Shown here in pieces: positions 3,641 to 18,840 of a stretch of DNA of 64,000 bases. Below the pieces are notes generated by a model, which was not told where the DNA came from, did no database searches, and saw nothing but the letters and a program-made list of their open reading frames with translations. Position 1 is the first letter of the stretch, and every line of letters begins with the position of its first letter. The stretch is from NCBI RefSeq assembly GCF_900157305.1, contig NZ_LS974202.1, positions 1,426,001 to 1,490,000 on the forward strand, read 5' to 3'. This DNA comes from Mesotoga infera. GTDB lineage: Bacteria > Thermotogota > Thermotogae > Petrotogales > Kosmotogaceae. The translations under genes and the position numbers were made by a program.

Positions 3641-4019
3641 CCCAAATTCAGTTAACACCTTAACACAAACCCTGTTCACGCTTCGCTTTTTACCCGGTTT
3701 TTTCCATTTTTCATTCACCCGACCTATTGTTTGATCCTCTCTCGCAAGTATCCTCATAAAAACAATCTCAGAACTTCGTACGCTATGCTTATTGTCGCAT
3801 CACTTTGCGTTTCTTCGATTTGGGTTAACTCCATTTTGCGGAGTATCCCGATCGGTTTATTCAGTTTCGTCGATATGCCCCTTAGAACTTTAATGACACG
3901 CATTAACTTCAGCGTAATTTCATCTCGTCGGAGCGATTGTATACCATCTGCGTCCCTTTTTCTTTCCTGTTCTAGCTTTTAGACTTATTTTGAATAATTC
4001 CTGTACAGTTTACATTGAC
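3641..4019. other. Gap before CRISPR leader, with a tiny possible ORF remnant
   Basis: No convincing gene. On the minus strand 3754-3903 reads as a 49-residue frame with protein-like composition (MRVIKVLRGISTKL ... IAYEVLRLFL). The same frame is open upstream of its ATG back to about 3978, without a start codon or Shine-Dalgarno. It may be the tail of a decayed gene; I do not recognise a family. Confidence 0.35.
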
Positions 4020-4205
4020 CCGACAGAAAAAAGGTCGATCGACTTTCAGTAAATGGCATTATTTGCTACCGGCAGAATGCCCGGGACAGCCCTGGTCCGC
4101 TTGACTCCTCCTAAAAGAAACCTTTTACCGAGGGCGCTGGGCGGGGTTCAGGAGCGATTTGACTTTACCCCCTGTAATCCTGTATAATTTTTTGTAATAA
4201 AGGCT
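4020..4205 (+). promoter_or_regulatory. CRISPR leader
   Basis: Sequence immediately 5' of the first repeat, becoming AT-rich toward it (GTATAATTTTTTGTAATAAAG). I assign it as the leader for three reasons: it carries a promoter pointing into the array, the repeat's 3' end (ATGGAAAC) has the form of the 8-nt 5' handle of mature crRNAs when read on the plus strand, and the only strongly degenerate terminal repeat is at the opposite end. There is no cas gene nearby to confirm the orientation. Confidence 0.65.
4159..4188 (+). promoter_or_regulatory. Promoter for pre-crRNA transcription
   Basis: TTGACT (4159-4164) and a perfect TATAAT (4183-4188) with an 18-bp spacer. The predicted start is near 4195, about 10 bp before the first repeat. 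A transcript from here would meet the insertion sequence after only the first 19 nt of repeat 1. Confidence 0.7.
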
Positions 4206-4225
4206 GTTGAGCGAGAACCATAGTC

Positions 4226-5320
4226 TCAACTTATGCACTTCGAGTTAACAAAGCGAGGAAGAAGGAAGTGGATAGAAGAGTCGCTAGCGGAAGAGCTTCG
4301 AGCTAATTGGAAGAAGTAATCGAATTTGATCAGTTCAAGGAAATCCCTGAGAGAGACCTGGTCTTTGACAGAGCGATAGAAGTTGGCGATCATCCATGTA
4401 GTGAAGGCAAGCTGGACAAGCTCTACATGCTTCTGAAAACTGGTAGAGGAGAAGACCTGAGCCTTGAGACCGAAGTTCTGCTTGACTGCTTTGAAGTAGG
4501 TCTCGATGTAGTTTCTCTTCCTATAATGCTCAAGGATCTCCCAATCGGTCAGAGAAGTATCGCTTGAGAGGATGATTCTGTTCTCTTGGTCTGTGTTATG
4601 AAAGACAAGCTTGACAGTGGCATTGTTGTATTTGGGTATCTTCACAATGATAGAAGAGAGACCGCGAGTTTTGTCTCTCAATTTGGACAGATGGAGCTTG
4701 CGCCCCTGAAAGATAACATTCAGTACAGGATTGAGTCTTCCGATTACTGTGAAACCCATTTCCATAGCCTTCAGAAATATCTCCGAGCAGAGTATTCCTC
4801 CATCCATCATGAGGATAGTATCTTTGAAGGGGATTCTCTCGAGCATTCGAATGAACTGGTCTGTGAGATTCTCTTCGTCTCTCAAAGAGGAGAAGAGAGG
4901 GAAGTAGAGTTTATCTTTCACCCAGCCTATAGCGCTCAAGAGAGAGACTCCACTCACGATTCTATTCTCTATGGTTGAGTAGAAGCTCCCGAGATTCTCG
5001 ATTCTCTTTCCTCTCCTCTTCATGACAGTCTCGTCCAGAATGATGTACTTGAACTCGAGAAAATTCTCCTGGAGGAATCTAGAGATGTAATCTACTCTCG
5101 CGTATGAAAGGTCTCTTGTGGAGAGTGACTGAGAGCTCAACATTCTCGAGATGGATGACTGAGAAGAAGAACAGAAGGGGGCCAGTCTGCTGGTGTTCTT
5201 ATGAGCGGACAGGAAGAGGGCACAGGAATACCCTTCAACAAACCTTCTCTGCTCTATACGTAGGAAGCGAACTGAACCGATGACATCCGAGATAATCTGT
5301 GATATATTCGTTGTGGGCAT
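4226..5320 (-). CDS. IS4-like DDE transposase (copy 1)
   Basis: Single-ORF transposase of the IS element. The catalytic triad is readable: D in YIILDETVMKRRG, D in TILMMDGGILCSE, and E in the Y-2-R-3-E-like HYRKRNYIETYFKAVKQ signature of IS4-type enzymes. I favour the ATG at 5320, which follows AAGGATGATTTC; the frame is also open to an ATG at 5371 (381 residues) with a poorer ribosome site. Both starts lie in the two arms of a 13-bp inverted repeat (5317-5373). Copy 2 differs by about nine residues over the 381-residue frame. Its 3' end lies within 2 bp of the element's terminus. Confidence 0.93.
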   Translation of the reverse strand: MPTTNISQIISDVIGSVRFLRIEQRRFVEGYSCALFLSAHKNTSRLAPFCSSSQSSISRMLSSQSLSTRDLSYARVDYISRFLQENFLEFKYIILDETVMKRRGKRIENLGSFYSTIENRIVSGVSLLSAIGWVKDKLYFPLFSSLRDEENLTDQFIRMLERIPFKDTILMMDGGILCSEIFLKAMEMGFTVIGRLNPVLNVIFQGRKLHLSKLRDKTRGLSSIIVKIPKYNNATVKLVFHNTDQENRIILSSDTSLTDWEILEHYRKRNYIETYFKAVKQNFGLKAQVFSSTSFQKHVELVQLAFTTWMIANFYRSVKDQVSLRDFLELIKFDYFFQLARSSSASDSSIHFLLPRFVNSKCIS

Positions 5321-5373
5321 GAAATCATCCTTTCGTAAGGTTTCGTCACCACGAATATACGATGATTTCATGC
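5317..5373 (-). promoter_or_regulatory. Stem-loop covering the transposase start (copy 1)
   Basis: A perfect 13-bp inverted repeat, GCATGAAATCATC (5317-5329) and GATGATTTCATGC (5361-5373), with a 31-nt loop. The two candidate ATG codons sit in opposite arms and part of the AAGGATGAT ribosome site is paired. In RNA this should hide translation initiation. It is conserved in copy 2. Confidence 0.65.
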
Positions 5374-7622
5374 CTTTTTCAATGACCCTGTCCTATTTCC
5401 TTCTTTTGGTTAAGTCAAAATGCATAAGTTGAGATAGTGGGATGGAAACGCGTTCTTTTCAATGAGGTACATAAGCAGAATAGAGTTGAGCGAGAACCAT
5501 AGTGGGATGGAAACATTGTGTTCAGGTATTTCGGGAAGTTGTAGGCTGCGTTGAGCGAGAACCATAGTGGGATGGAAACTCGGTATGGATATAGTGGTTC
5601 CATATCTGTTGTCCGCGTTGAGCGAGAACCATAGTGGGATGGAAACATTATAAGACCCAGTGCAACACCTACTGCCGTGCCGAGTTGAGCGAGAACCATA
5701 GTGGGATGGAAACTAATTGCCCTTCATCTGTACTTCTCATCGTGCCATCTCGTTGAGCGAGAACCATAGTGGGATGGAAACTGAAGTATTGTGCTTGCCT
5801 GTTGCCCAGTTGCCTCGAGTTGAGCGAGAACCATAGTGGGATGGAAACAGTGCAAGGTTACGGACATTGAGAGGGCTTGGGGCGAGTTGAGCGAGAACCA
5901 TAGTGGGATGGAAACAGACAATAAACTCATCTGATAATTCTTTCTCTGCCTTGTTGAGCGAGAACCATAGTGGGATGGAAACTAAGTTAAAACTTAAATA
6001 TTTTAAGTTTTTATATAAGTTGAGCGAGAACCATAGTGGGATGGAAACTTATAAATGGGGATAATGTCTAACGTGTCAGAATTGGTTGAGCGAGAACCAT
6101 AGTGGGATGGAAACTAAATGTTAACCCCTATCTGGGCTAGAGCAGTCTCGTTGAGCGAGAACCATAGTGGGATGGAAACATTACAATTGACCCTTAGAGC
6201 AAATTAGTACGAGTTGAGCGAGAACCATAGTGGGATGGAAACGGATACTCCTTTTTTAAGAGGTCAACATCTACTCTAGTTGAGCGAGAACCATAGTGGG
6301 ATGGAAACTTGTATGTGCCGCCGTACTTATCCCCGTCGAACACGGGTTGAGCGAGAACCATAGTGGGATGGAAACGAACCACCAGAAACAAACGGATTTG
6401 CAAGCACAGGGTTGAGCGAGAACCATAGTGGGATGGAAATATGTATGCTCCGAGCCACTTTGTGTTCTTGAATTCGAGTTGAGCGAGAACCATAGTGGGA
6501 TGGAAATAGTTTTGGAGTTATAGAATCTCTCCATGATTTTATATGTTGAGCGAGAACCATAGTGGGATGGAAATTAGATACCGCACTGGCTAGTGGATTC
6601 GTTTGTTAGCAGTTGAGCGAGAACCATAGTGGGATGGAAACGCAAGAGTCCTCAACACGTACCTCCTATTCAGTGGTTGAGCGAGAACCATAGTGGGATG
6701 GAAACCCGAGCCTGAAAGGCGAGATAATTCTCAATTCATGTTGAGCGAGAACCATAGTGGGATGGAAACGCGAAAGAACCGCGCAACGCATCGTAAACAC
6801 GCTTAGTTGAGCGAGAACCATAGTGGGATGGAAACCCATTATAAATGGGGATAATAGCCAAGGTATCATGAGTTGAGCGAGAACCATAGTGGGATGGAAA
6901 CATAGACTTTATTATGAAAGCTTCTTTCCCGTCCGATAGTTGAGCGAGAACCATAGTGGGATGGAAACGTTATTGAACTTAACATCAATCGGGGGCAATT
7001 CTTCCGTTGAGCGAGAACCATAGTGGGATGGAAACGTCCCTTCCAGTTCCAGTACAACCAGCCATAGGTTACGTTGAGCGAGAACCATAGTGGGATGGAA
7101 ACTTGGCTGGAAGTCTTCAATTTCGCACGCTGAGTTCCTAGTTGAGCGAGAACCATAGTGGGATGGAAACTTGAACTTTCTGCTCCAGTGATCGGTTGTT
7201 GGTATGGTTGAGCGAGAACCATAGTGGGATGGAAACTTTTCGTCTTCAAGTTTTATTTTTGCCCATATATTGGTTGAGCGAGAACCATAGTGGGATGGAA
7301 ACGGCATTTCCAAGAATCTTTCACCAGCAAGACTCTTGTTGAGCGAGAACCATAGTGGGATGGAAACCCGCTCAAGAGCCGCCTTGTCACTTCACGGGCT
7401 GAAAGTTGAGCGAGAACCATAGTGGGATGGAAACAAGTTCTCCCACGGCTCACCTGCGAGGAGCCTTCTTGTTGAGCGAGAACCATAGTGGGATGGAAAC
7501 GCGCCTGCTCGGAGCTGCCAATAACCAAAGCTCCGGTTGAGCGAGAACCATAGTGGGATGGAAACATTTTTGTGCCGCGCTGAGTTTTACTTCAAGCTAT
7601 CCGTTGAGCGAGAACCATAGTC

Positions 7623-8717
7623 TCAACTTATGCACTTCGAGTTAACAAAGCGAGGAAGAAGGAAGTGGATAGAAGAATCGCTAGCGGAAGAGCTTCGAGC
7701 TAATTGGAAGAAGTAATCGAATTTGATCAGTTCAAGGAAATCCCTGAGAGAGACCTGGTCTTTGACAGAACGATAGAAGTTGGCGATCATCCATGTAGTG
7801 AAGGCAAGCTGGACAAGTTCGACATGCTTCTGAAAACTGGTAGAGGAGAAGACCTGGGCCTTGAGACCGAAGTTCTGCTTGACTGCTTTGAAGTAGGTCT
7901 CGATGTAGTTTCTCTTCCTATAATGCTCAAGGATCTCCCAATCGGTCAGAGAAGTATCGCTTGAGAGGATGATTCTGTTCTCTTGGTCTGTGTTATGGAA
8001 GACAAGCTTGACAGTGGCATTGTTGTATTTGGGTATCTTCACAATGATAGAAGAGAGACCGCGAGTCTTGTTTCTCAGTTTGGACAGATGGAGCTTGCGC
8101 CCCTGAAAGATAACATTCATCACAGGGTTGAGTCTTCCGATTACTGTGAACCCCATTTCCATAGCCTTCAGAAATATCTCCGAGCAGAGTATTCCTCCAT
8201 CCATCATGAGGATAGTATCTTTGAAAGGTATCCTCTCTAGCATTCGAATGAACTGGTCTGTGAGATTCTCTTCGTCTCTCAAAGAGGAGAAGAGAGGGAA
8301 GTAGAGTTTATCTTTCACCCAGCCGATAGCGCTCAAGAGAGAGACACCACTCACGATTTTATTCTCTATGGTTGAGTAGAACTTCCCGAGATTCTCGATT
8401 CTCTTTCCTCTCCTCTTCATGACAGTCTCGTCCAGAATGATGTACTTGAACTCGAGAGAATACTCCTGGAGGAATCTAGAGATGTAATCTACTCTCGCGT
8501 ATGAAAGGTCTCTTGTGGAGAGTGACTGAGAGCTCAACATTCTCGAGATGGATGACTGAGAAGAAGAACAGAAGGGGGCCAGTCTGCTGGTGTTCTTATG
8601 AGCGGACAGGAAGAGGGCACAGGAATACCCTTCAACAAACCTTCTCTGCTCTATACGTAGGAAGCGAACTGAACCGATGACATTCGAGATAATCTGTGAT
8701 ATATTCGTTGTGGGCAT
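7623..8717 (-). CDS. IS4-like DDE transposase (copy 2)
   Basis: Same family and length as the copy at 4226-5320, with an intact D-D-E set (YIILDETVMKRRG, LMMDGGILCSE, RKRNYIETYFKAV). Compared with copy 1 it differs at about nine positions, for example E to Q and L to I in the N-terminal extension, D to N in SDVIGS, and NF to YS in LQENFLEFK. Neither copy shows a stop or frameshift, so both may be active. The start at 8717 is chosen as in copy 1; the frame is open to 8768. Confidence 0.93.
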   Translation of the reverse strand: MPTTNISQIISNVIGSVRFLRIEQRRFVEGYSCALFLSAHKNTSRLAPFCSSSQSSISRMLSSQSLSTRDLSYARVDYISRFLQEYSLEFKYIILDETVMKRRGKRIENLGKFYSTIENKIVSGVSLLSAIGWVKDKLYFPLFSSLRDEENLTDQFIRMLERIPFKDTILMMDGGILCSEIFLKAMEMGFTVIGRLNPVMNVIFQGRKLHLSKLRNKTRGLSSIIVKIPKYNNATVKLVFHNTDQENRIILSSDTSLTDWEILEHYRKRNYIETYFKAVKQNFGLKAQVFSSTSFQKHVELVQLAFTTWMIANFYRSVKDQVSLRDFLELIKFDYFFQLARSSSASDSSIHFLLPRFVNSKCIS

Positions 8718-8770
8718 GAAATCATCCTTTCGTATGGTCTGATCACCACGAATATACGATGATTTCATGC
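8714..8770 (-). promoter_or_regulatory. Stem-loop covering the transposase start (copy 2)
   Basis: The same 13-bp inverted repeat as in copy 1 (8714-8726 and 8758-8770). The arms are unchanged although the loop differs (ATGGTCTGATC against AAGGTTTCGTC). Conserved arms with a diverged loop support a functional structure. Confidence 0.6.
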
Positions 8771-9043
8771 CTTTTTCAATGACCCTGTTCTATTTCCTTC
8801 TTTAGGTTAAGTCAAAGTGCATAAGTTGAGATAGTGGGATGGAAACACTGCAATATAGTCTTCTGGTATTTTTCTCATCTTTTGTTGAGCGAGAACCATA
8901 GTGGGATGGAAACGACGGATATTGAGCGGAAGATTTGCGAATTCCTTGGTTGAGCGAGAACCATAGTGGGATGGAAACGTTCTTCCAGAGAACCAGTATT
9001 ATGACCGCCACAAGTTGAGCGAGAACCATATTGGGATGATAAG

Positions 9044-9183
9044 AGCGGTTGTTGGTTGTTCGTTGTTGGTTCCTGGTAAGAACGAGATCCCGTATAGGAA
9101 CACTACGGGATGACAGTACGGGGACACCACGGGATGACAGTCTTTCCTTCCTTCCCGTCATTCTGAGCTTGACTCAGAATCCC
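9044..9183. repeat. Mosaic intergenic repeat block B, at the array's end
   Basis: It begins directly after the degenerate last CRISPR repeat (AGCGGTTGTTGGTTGTTCG...). It contains GAGATCCCGTATAGGAAC / ACTACGGGATGACAG units and ends with a hairpin unit, ATTCTGAG-CTTGA-CTCAGAAT (about 9160-9180). The stretch from about 9033 to 9117 is nearly identical to 18181-18265 and 18492-18576. The group II intron begins at the very end of the hairpin unit. Confidence 0.8.
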
Positions 9184-9766
9184 GTGCGCCCGGCATGGTA
9201 CACAACTATAGGGTGAAAGACCCGAATGTGGGGAGTCAAAGAAGCATTAGCCAGAGGCAAGGGTGTCACTGGTAACGGTGAATCTGAAGGAAGCCCGAGG
9301 CAAAGTCCGGAACTGAACGAAAGTGAACCAGAGATGGCCGTTACAGAGGGTAACCCTGCGAGATAAGGGAAAGCCCTGACTCCAGCTGTAAAGGTTCGGA
9401 TGGCAGGATTCGGATGAAAGTGGTGTATCTTACCCGGGGAAGTCCTCATGAGTCCGAAAGGGGTAACCGTTAGCAAGGAGGAGATCCAAGTTAAGGGAAA
9501 GCTCAGGAGGATGGCAGATGAACCCGTAGTAGTGAAGAACCTCTCCGAAAGGAGAAGGGACCTTGGCTATAAGCCAAGGGGGTGATGAGGAGGTCGAAAG
9601 GCTCCATCACTTGCGAAGGGGAGAAGGATCGAAGAAATGTGATCGGAAGACAGTGAAGAGACTTAGGTCAGACAGTTAAAGACAAGGTACATATTCCCGG
9701 GAGGGTAGAGAAGCCAGTCATTAATTGTCGCAACAATATCTGAGGCTGGAGCTGTTGGAAGGGAGC

Positions 9767-11052
9767 ATGCAGGAGAAAGAGATGAAGTATTACAGTCTAA
9801 TCGACAAAGTCTATTCGAAGAAGAACCTATTGAAAGCCTATCACAGGGTAAACTCCAACAGAGGAGCTCCTGGGATAGACGGAGTAACCGTAAAATCATT
9901 CGGGGAGAAACTCCTTGAAGAAATCGAGAGATTATCCGAAGAAATCAAGAGCGGTGAGTACATGCCCATGCCACTCAGGAGAGTAGAAATCCCAAAAGCA
10001 GATGGTAAAACAAGGCAATTGGGAAGTACCTACTGTGAGAGACAGGGAGGTACGAACAATACTCTCAAGGAGATACTGGAACCTATATTCGAGGAAAGAT
10101 TCCATCCTCCAGTTACGGTTACTGAAAGGGAAGAAATGCCTGGCAGGCGGTGGAGAAGGCGAAAGCTTTTGCATCCAAATACGGTCTGTGCAATGTAGTG
10201 GAACTTGACCTGAGCAAATGTTTCGACACTCTGGATCATGAGAAGATAATAGACTCCGTAGCAGAGAGAGTGAGTGATGGAAAGATACTCAAACTCATAC
10301 GCGCAATGCTGAAGAGCGGAGTAATGGAAGATGGAGTCTGGAAGGCAACAGAAACTGGCAGTCCACAGGGTAGTGTAATAAGTCCCCTGCTGGCGAACAT
10401 CTACCTGGACGAGTTCGACCAGAAGATGAAAGCCAGAGGAATAAGGATAGTCAGATATGCAGACGACATATTAATCTTCTCGAAAACCCAGGAAGAAGCC
10501 CGAGAGTTTCTGGCAATCGCGATCAACATACTGGAGATTGACATGAAGCTCAAGGTCAACAGAAACAAGACGAGAATCACAACACTGGAGGAGGGCTTTC
10601 ACTTTCTTGGCTTCGAAATAAAAGGCGAGAGAGTTGGGATAGAGAAATCCAGATTGAAAAGGTTCAAGGGAAAGGTCAAGGGACTTACAAGAAGGAACCA
10701 GAGCACACCGGTAAAGGAAATAGTGAAAGAGCTAAATCCACTGTTGAGAGGATTTGCCAGCTATTTCAGGATAGTAGACTTACAATCTTCCTTGAGAGGG
10801 CTTTTGAGCTGGATAAGGAGAAGGCTTAGAGCCATCATACTACACCAGTGGAAGAGCACAAAGAAACTGAACAGAGTCCTTAGAAGGGCTGGATGGGAAG
10901 AGAAAGTCAATTTGAGAATGAACAAATGGCGCTCTTCTCACACAAAAGCAGTCAATTACGCCATTCCCAACAGGTTCTTTGAAGAGATGAACTTATTCGA
11001 TATGACATCGTACTATCATCCCCTGTCGAAGTATCCGATACTCGATCCATGA
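9767..11052 (+). pseudogene. ltrA: Group II intron reverse transcriptase/maturase, frameshifted
   Basis: N-terminal RT blocks are intact (RVNSNRGAPGIDGVTV, MPLRRVEIPKADGKTRQLG). After 10018 the protein hops among frames: PTVRDREVRTI in one, LKEILEPIFEERFHP in another, KGKKCLA in a third, before settling at about 10150 in EKAKAFASKYGLCNVVELDLSKCFDTLDH, which runs uninterrupted to the stop. Later blocks are intact, including the catalytic RYADDILIF, SPQGSVISPLLANIYL and the maturase region near the C-terminus (AVNYAIPNRFFEEMNLF). There are about five small indels, and TAC-TGA replaces an expected Arg codon, all within 130 bp. The ATG at 9767 follows GGAAGGGAGC. The protein cannot be made in full from this sequence. 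Confidence 0.9.
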
Positions 11053-11084
11053 GCCGTGTACGAGGCCCGTACGCACGGTTCTGT
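11051..11084 (+). ncRNA. Group II intron domain V
   Basis: 34 nt beginning GAGCCGTGTACGAGG and closing with ACGCACGGTTCTGT. It folds as the standard bulged hairpin, with AGC as the catalytic triad and a tetraloop-like tip. Its first base overlaps the TGA stop of the maturase ORF. Confidence 0.9.
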
Positions 11085-11120
11085 GAGAGGACGAGGGGCT
11101 CCGCCCCTCTCCTACTCGAT

Positions 11121-11183
11121 GTGCGCCCGGCATGGTACACAACTATAGGGTGAAAGACCCGAATGTGGGGAGTCAAAGAAGCA
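11121..11183 (+). repeat. 3'-truncated second copy of the intron 5' end
   Basis: 63 bp identical to 9184-9246, starting at the exact base after the end of the full intron (CTACTCGAT then GTGCGCCCGG). After AAAGAAGCA the identity stops (GCGGATAATG against TTAGCCAGAG). It is a tandem intron remnant. Confidence 0.92.
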
Positions 11184-18164: not shown

Positions 18165-18840
18165 TTTCCACTAACCTCAGTGGGATGATAAGAGCGGTTG
18201 TTGGTTGTTCGTTGTTGGTTCCTGGTAAGAGCGAGATCCCGTATAGGAGCACTACGGGATGACCCTGAATAGGAGCATTTCAGGGCAGGCTCCATGGGGA
18301 CACTACGGGATGACAGTCTTACTCCCTTCCCGTCATGCCGGACCTGATCCGGCATCTCCGCTCTTTCCTCTGTCTTGAACCAAGAACGAGGAACCTGGAC
18401 TCGCAGCATCGGAACGAGGAACTGCACGAAGGACGGGTCCATGATCTGGGACGAACAACGAAGGACGGCTCTTCTGAGCGAGAACCATAGTGGGATGATA
18501 AGAGCGGTTGTTGGTTGTTCGTTGTTGGTTCCTGGTAAGAGCGAGATCCCGTATAGGAGCACTACGGGATGACAGTATTGGTGTACTGCGTGATGACAGC
18601 CCCTTCCCGTCATGCCGGACACTGATCCGGCATCTCCGCTCCTTCGAAAGAGCGGGAAGAGCGAGATCCCGTATAGGAACATTACGGGATGACAGGATGG
18701 GGGCGGTTAACGGGATGACAGTCTTACTCCCTTCCCGTCATGCCGGACCTGATCCGGCATCTCCGCTCTTTCCTCTGTCTTGAACCAAGAACGAGGAACC
18801 TGAACGCGCGGTGTCGGAACGAGGAACCGCTCTTTCTTGT
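18165..18840. repeat. Mosaic intergenic repeat block C, with orphan CRISPR repeat pieces
   Basis: Three GCCGGA-N5/6-TCCGGC hairpin units (18337-18353, 18614-18631, 18742-18758), each preceded by CCTTCCCGTCATGCC, alternate with GAGATCCCGTATAGGA / ACGGGATGACAG units. Two stretches, from 18179 and from 18475, repeat the sequence found at the end of the CRISPR array. The tail AACGAGGAACCTGAACGCGCG resembles text at 3595-3630. No gene; the long frame on the minus strand is repeat read-through. Confidence 0.8.
18475..18502 (+). repeat. Orphan CRISPR repeat fragment
   Basis: TGAGCGAGAACCATAGTGGG plus ATG (18475-18497) equals positions 3-25 of the array's repeat, then diverges to ATAAG exactly as the array's last repeat does. 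The sequence after it also equals that after the array. There is no second repeat or spacer here. Confidence 0.85.

Follow-up and report, generated by a model that had tools for sequence, protein, structure and literature searches.

In several species of Mesotoga, CRISPR repeats are joined at constant positions to a genome-wide, REP-like mosaic block, here termed M, which caps the trailer end of arrays, divides that end into spacer cassettes and surrounds lone repeats elsewhere in the genome. The best explanation, to which we assign a probability of about 0.6, is that one or a few old fusions between a repeat and M were followed by homologous recombination between M copies and between CRISPR repeats. 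The window, the whole stretch of 64,000 nucleotides analysed here, covers positions 1,426,001–1,490,000 of the 2.97-Mb single contig of the Mesotoga source genome (G000).

The window holds one CRISPR array with near-identical repeats (R1), unique spacers of similar size and a conserved leader (Table 1), and the final ~30 nt of this leader (..TGTATAAT..TTTGTAATA..) recur in conserved form ahead of all eight arrays examined. Its last repeat had been described as degenerate in the first-pass annotation; 25 of the 30 bases are intact but for a single G>T, and what is truly altered is the final five bases, which are replaced by mosaic sequence. Among the repeats censused, this variant is found besides only at 992742 and 993029. 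The 107-nt unit that starts here is composite, with bases 1–25 belonging to the CRISPR repeat, bases ~26–61 forming a head, and bases ~62–107 corresponding to a common dispersed palindromic module. The segment 9016–9117 recurs at 18475–18576 (99 of 102 positions identical), and a third copy at 18177–18266 (83 of 90) begins inside the repeat, retaining nine exact repeat bases. The annotation had reported these recurrences, of 9014–9117 at 18475–18576 and at about 18179–18265, and they stand; chance is excluded by nine near-full copies of the unit in the genome, all with a CRISPR repeat (E-values 1e-35 to 1e-50). The orphan fragment it placed at 18475 is a 23-nt exact copy, TGAGCGAGAACCATAGTGGGATG, of bases 3–25 of the R1 repeat. 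Having these bases only, no spacer and no leader, the orphan is not an active CRISPR repeat. The dispersed block around it (18173–18834) reads M-0-M, zero denoting the number of spacers between the two Ms, with a repeat remnant at the left edge.

Table 1 Features of the CRISPR array and of the dispersed M block, in window coordinates (a slash marks a junction).
Feature	Coordinates	Strand	Remarks
R1 array leader	3740–4205	+	5′ of first repeat; near-identical to upstream of the 2.925-Mb array (L031 10290–10720)
R1 CRISPR array	4206–9038	+	repeat GTTGAGCGAGAACCATAGTGGGATGGAAAC; interrupted by two IS copies (4224–5434, 7621–8831)
Last repeat of R1 array	9014–9038	+	bases 1–25 only; private G>T (CATATTGGG); base 25 abuts M
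M, left part	9039–9183	+	head ATAAGAGCGGTTGTTGG.., then palindromic module ..GAGATCCCGTATAGGAACACTACGGGATGAC..
Group II intron within M	9184–11120	+	Rfam RF02001 and RF00029; right part of M missing
CRISPR repeat remnant	18173–18187	+	repeat bases 11–25, 13/15 match; nine bases (18179–18187) exact; left edge of dispersed block
M copy 1	18188–18474	+	ends ..GACGAACAACGAAGGACGGCTCTTC; 89–94% identical to Ms in the 2.925-Mb array and at 992 kb
Zero-spacer cassette, an orphan 23-nt CRISPR repeat	18475–18497	+	5′ edge as in a cassette-first repeat (CTCTTC/TGAGCG), 3′ edge as in a cassette-last repeat (GGGATG/ATAAG)
M copy 2 and further mosaic modules	18498–18834	+	homology to other mosaic copies ends at ~18834

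Both insertion sequences in the array are of one type, encoding a DDE_Tnp_1 transposase of 381 aa, and both lie in CRISPR repeats at an equal position (CATAG/TGGG, with TAG on either side), one of them in the leader-proximal repeat. The array terminates in an M that holds a group II intron and whose right half is absent. Homologous introns are present in M at 2.928 Mb, at 992 kb and elsewhere in mosaic blocks. The reverse transcriptase of the window intron is split over two frames (9725–10198 and 10150–11052), and the intron runs directly into 63 nt from the start of another copy, the two together covering 9184–11183. Rfam returned nothing but the group II intron, promoters and terminators in M were in no excess over shuffled sequences, and the predicted RNA structure of an M′ segment was not striking (z = −1.9).

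Across the source genome, the right-hand module of the unit (query bases 55–79 onward) was found in at least 49 copies without a CRISPR repeat, a lower bound that counts scored candidates only, and every copy of the head found there followed a CRISPR repeat. When the left flank of the orphan (18360–18520) served as the query, copies with the CRISPR core were retrieved as well as copies reading CTCTTCTGAGCGAGATCCCG without it. The palindromic modules and their many copies, at ~61 presumably intergenic sites, make the family a REP-like mosaic. Since the repeat is found in nine copies and is absent from at least 49, CRISPR sequence is not a normal part of the mosaic family and the repeat rides along as a passenger, and in this sense the earlier suggestion that the repeat was captured by the family was right. 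This count had been proposed beforehand, with CRISPR-free copies to be read as a sign of chance adjacency; such copies exist, but chance adjacency is rejected, given that other species have junctions of the same kind. Eight CRISPR-free copies in the source genome read CTCTTCTGAGCGAGATCC (738397, 944069, 995240, 1235284, 1294854, 1295174, 2857028 and 2945344), a form absent from nine congeners; they are either CRISPR-bearing copies scarred by a deletion or the origin of a microhomology.

Two further loci of the source genome show the same arrangement. The array at 2.925 Mb reads leader-21-M-3-M-1-M (G000_B; the numbers are spacers), its second M containing a group II intron, and the 992-kb locus reads M-1-M-0-M and has no leader. 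The leader-proximal spacer of the 2.925-Mb array (L031 10772–10815) terminates in GTTGAGCGAGAA, which duplicates the beginning of the repeat. Two additional arrays, with repeats GTTTCGAATCAACCAAAGAGGGATATAAAC and GCTTCCAGACTACCTATGAGGAATTGAAAC (L152 11–577 and L153 5753–6983), flank or lie near the sole type I-B cas locus, and no mosaic blocks were found in either. The only cas1 found belongs to that locus (1.314–1.325 Mb), which adjoins these arrays of two other repeats. A search for a type III effector that could serve the R1 arrays yielded no full Csm1, only weak partial matches below the cut-off, and neither a protospacer of the 992-kb mini-array spacer nor a phage carrying the junction had an exact match in IMG/VR.

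We mapped eight arrays or mini-arrays in four genomes, the source genome and its congeners G007, G011 and G012. In every leader-bearing array mapped, M is joined on the trailer side after base 25 of the repeat (..GGKATG/), and in five arrays it also divides the older end into cassettes of 0–23 spacers. Most Ms are ~210–295 bp long. In the source genome the repeat halts at GGGATG/ATAAGAGCGG on the trailer side, M ends in ..GGACGGCTCTTC on the cassette side, where the repeat resumes at base 3 (TGAGCGAGAACC..), and 0, 1 or 3 spacers separate successive Ms. The three congeners carry a related repeat, R1′ (GTTGCGTRAGAACCATAGTGGTATGGAAAC), in arrays with M-separated cassettes, the longest map being leader-69-M-0-M-7-M-5-M-0-M-2-M-0-M-1-M (G007_B). 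The R1′ trailer junction also follows base 25 (GGTATG/) and leads into one of two heads, CTAAGAGCCGTTGTGGG, which is homologous to that of the source genome, and AATTGCTGCCTTCGGCAGG. The latter, the AATTGCTG type, has 17 copies in the genus, all of them adjoining CRISPR sequence and 16 exactly at the base-25 junction; one in G012 begins inside a spacer. Both kinds of junction (..GGKATG/M on the trailer side, M/..GAGAACC on the cassette side) are uniform per genome and homologous across species.

The association is an old one. The source genome retains two old zero-spacer copies of R1′ type (677 and 681 kb), indicating that the joining of CRISPR repeat and M predates the divergence of the two repeat types, and G006 and G013 each contain one zero-spacer copy and no exact R1′ repeat. 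G007_B and G012_C14 have a two-spacer cassette in common, and the Ms preceding it are 99% identical, so this stretch is either orthologous or exchanged. Outside the genus, only three MAG contigs of other labels were found to contain the exact repeat core: one with 22 repeats, a Mesotoga-type leader and an M′ junction, one with a Mesotoga-like leader and no M, and one with a lone 21-nt match. The MAG contigs L162 and L164, labelled Bacteroidales and Oscillospiraceae, have Mesotoga-type leaders and repeats and are probably misbinned; in L164 the first repeat is truncated, there is one spacer, and the mosaic block is absent.

Within arrays, M is strongly polarized. The leader-proximal 21–69 spacers are free of M in every array mapped (24 in G012_C25), and the distinct internal M sites have a mean relative position of 0.88 from the leader, with a minimum of 0.65; 200,000 random placements gave no case as extreme. 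A bias towards the trailer would also be expected if M had inserted long ago and newer spacers had been added later.

Evidence for recombination comes from the repeats that separate two Ms without any spacer. These always combine the 5′ edge of a first repeat with the 3′ edge of a last repeat, which is expected if the first and last repeats of a cassette recombined, and the chimera at 992742 bears the T variant of the neighbouring last repeat. The orphan of the window is likewise a lone repeat with the 5′ context of a first and the 3′ context of a last repeat, as in a collapsed array. In-situ growth of an array from an orphan repeat by spacer acquisition is rejected, since acquisition would copy the whole chimeric repeat and the first and last repeats of cassettes each keep one canonical half. 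The end of the window array is 100% identical over 107 nt to 992947–993053 despite different adjoining spacers, which indicates that repeat and M were moved or converted as a unit. In G007_B, the Ms at 10256 and 10963 have a unique head variant in common and then diverge, those at 9969 and 10676 are 100% identical, and heads and tails of M assort independently. Such partial sharing indicates that M copies are recombinants of one another. Of the two origins offered in the first-pass annotation, duplication of an array end within the mosaic therefore fares better, as identical junctions are seen at the ends and in the interior of arrays and also at dispersed sites, and the orphans are first/last chimeras.

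Under repeat–M fusion followed by recombination, a CRISPR repeat would have become joined on both sides to the dispersed mosaic block, and the M copies, being long and similar, would recombine with one another. Such exchange could link the M at the trailer end of an array to an M-flanked spacer cassette from elsewhere, adding cassettes beyond the trailer, and could also carry cassettes to sites outside arrays. Recombination between the first and last repeats of a cassette, to which the chimeric repeats point, would then remove its spacers and leave one chimeric orphan between two Ms. With collapse of this kind, the orphan at 18475–18497 would be the fossil of a collapsed cassette; it does resemble a cassette that has lost its spacers and persists at another genomic site, and it is probably without function. 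Which fusion came first is part of this inference. A single founding fusion leaves unexplained two unrelated heads (NNAAGAGC and AATTGCTG) that both start right after repeat base 25. Site-specific insertion could account for this shared start, as could selection for retaining the segment of the last repeat on which crRNA processing depends. Also counting against fusion and recombination are the failure to find an empty site (the joined flanks of 18173–18834 have no match in nine congeners), the other possible origin of the trailer bias, and the M of G012 that starts in a spacer.

The constancy of the breakpoints raises the possibility, which we consider unlikely, that M is a short MITE-like mobile element that has imperfect terminal inverted repeats (AAGAGCSGTYSTTSGTTGTTCGT) and duplicates a 20–23-bp core on inserting site-specifically into CRISPR repeats, perhaps with a transposase or the Cas1–Cas2 integrase acting in trans. 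A broader form, in which arrays are the home of a mobile block that integrates site-specifically into CRISPR repeats, possibly through the adaptation integrase, and cassettes move between arrays, is slightly less likely still. Direct copies of the repeat core do flank M (bases 3–25 in the source genome, bases 6–25 in M. prima-like genomes, where the core is centred in the 30-nt repeat), two unrelated heads begin after the same base, all Ms share one orientation, and the AATTGCTG-type copies adjoin CRISPR sequence without exception. In the source genome, 19 of 24 positions also agree between the head and the reverse-complemented tail; the AATTGCTG-type M lacks this left end. Against insertion, the leader-proximal spacers of every array are without M, as are the two other arrays near the cas locus, G007, G011 and G012 yielded no dispersed AATTGCTG-type master copy, and the duplicated stretch is of unequal length between species (23 versus 20 bp). 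Selection to preserve what crRNA processing requires of the last repeat could also produce equal breakpoints.

It is quite improbable that the head (AAGAGC..) is no more than the native trailer of the CRISPR arrays, copied along when arrays were duplicated, with incidental mosaic neighbours and no exchange of cassettes. Head-1 does follow the last repeat in leader-bearing arrays of G000, G012 and the MAG contig L162, and the 3′ ends of terminal repeats are usually altered or degenerate (PMC8047081). Already weakened by the internal Ms, a native trailer leaves unexplained the M between cassettes inside arrays, the M/repeat junctions, the zero-spacer chimeras and the different AATTGCTG head in four arrays. 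Derivation of the CRISPR repeat from the mosaic family, the other origin offered in the annotation, is very improbable: the CTCTTCTGAGCGAGATCC copies, seen in the source genome and not in nine congeners, have TGAGCGAGA in common with the repeat, but module copies without a repeat abound, the CRISPR part follows the array repeat of each species, old mosaic copies in the source genome hold the repeat type of other species (TGCGTGAG..GGTATG), arrays run for 21–69 spacers without mosaic, and the common 9 nt are more easily explained by a deletion between GAGCGAGA direct repeats or by chance microhomology.

Several known systems resemble this arrangement in part. In Methanocaldococcus jannaschii, LR-SR elements pair a long dispersed repeat with CRISPR arrays of variable size at many sites, the long repeat lying on the leader side; in Mesotoga, the repeated block sits on the trailer side and separates cassettes, and a CRISPR part is missing from most members of the family. 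Insertion sequences and MITEs interrupt CRISPR arrays, for example in Sulfolobales, and like M they are foreign repeated DNA within the array. M differs from them in being non-coding, in its one orientation and constant repeat breakpoints, and in having no copy in the newer half of arrays. The family shares with REP- and MITE-type mosaic repeats its short, palindromic, modular, intergenic and multi-copy nature, and M. prima has been listed as REP-rich (PMC12306157); here, however, some members contain a CRISPR repeat core, always at one position, and reside inside CRISPR arrays. Spacer deletion through recombination between repeats has been reviewed, with collapse of an array to one repeat discussed as a possibility (PMC8047081). 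The trailer-end polymorphism and spacer loss treated there likewise involve a terminal repeat altered at its 3′ end, whereas in Mesotoga this end joins a genome-wide repeat at a conserved junction and recurs several times within one array, and collapsed cassettes are dispersed elsewhere. The wider pattern extends known CRISPR trailer behaviour. No description of it turned up in the searchable literature; the main M. prima genome paper lies outside that literature, and a prior mention is possible.

The usual picture of a CRISPR array is one of growth at the leader and loss of spacers from within. In several Mesotoga species, a genome-wide repeat has been built into the old end of arrays, splitting it into cassettes and leaving emptied ones elsewhere, and these provide fossils of array collapse, an event hitherto mostly argued as a possibility. 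Array finders will report the pieces split by M as separate CRISPR loci. If recombination between Ms moves cassettes, old immune memories could be joined and moved between loci without new acquisition, and perhaps exchanged between strains.
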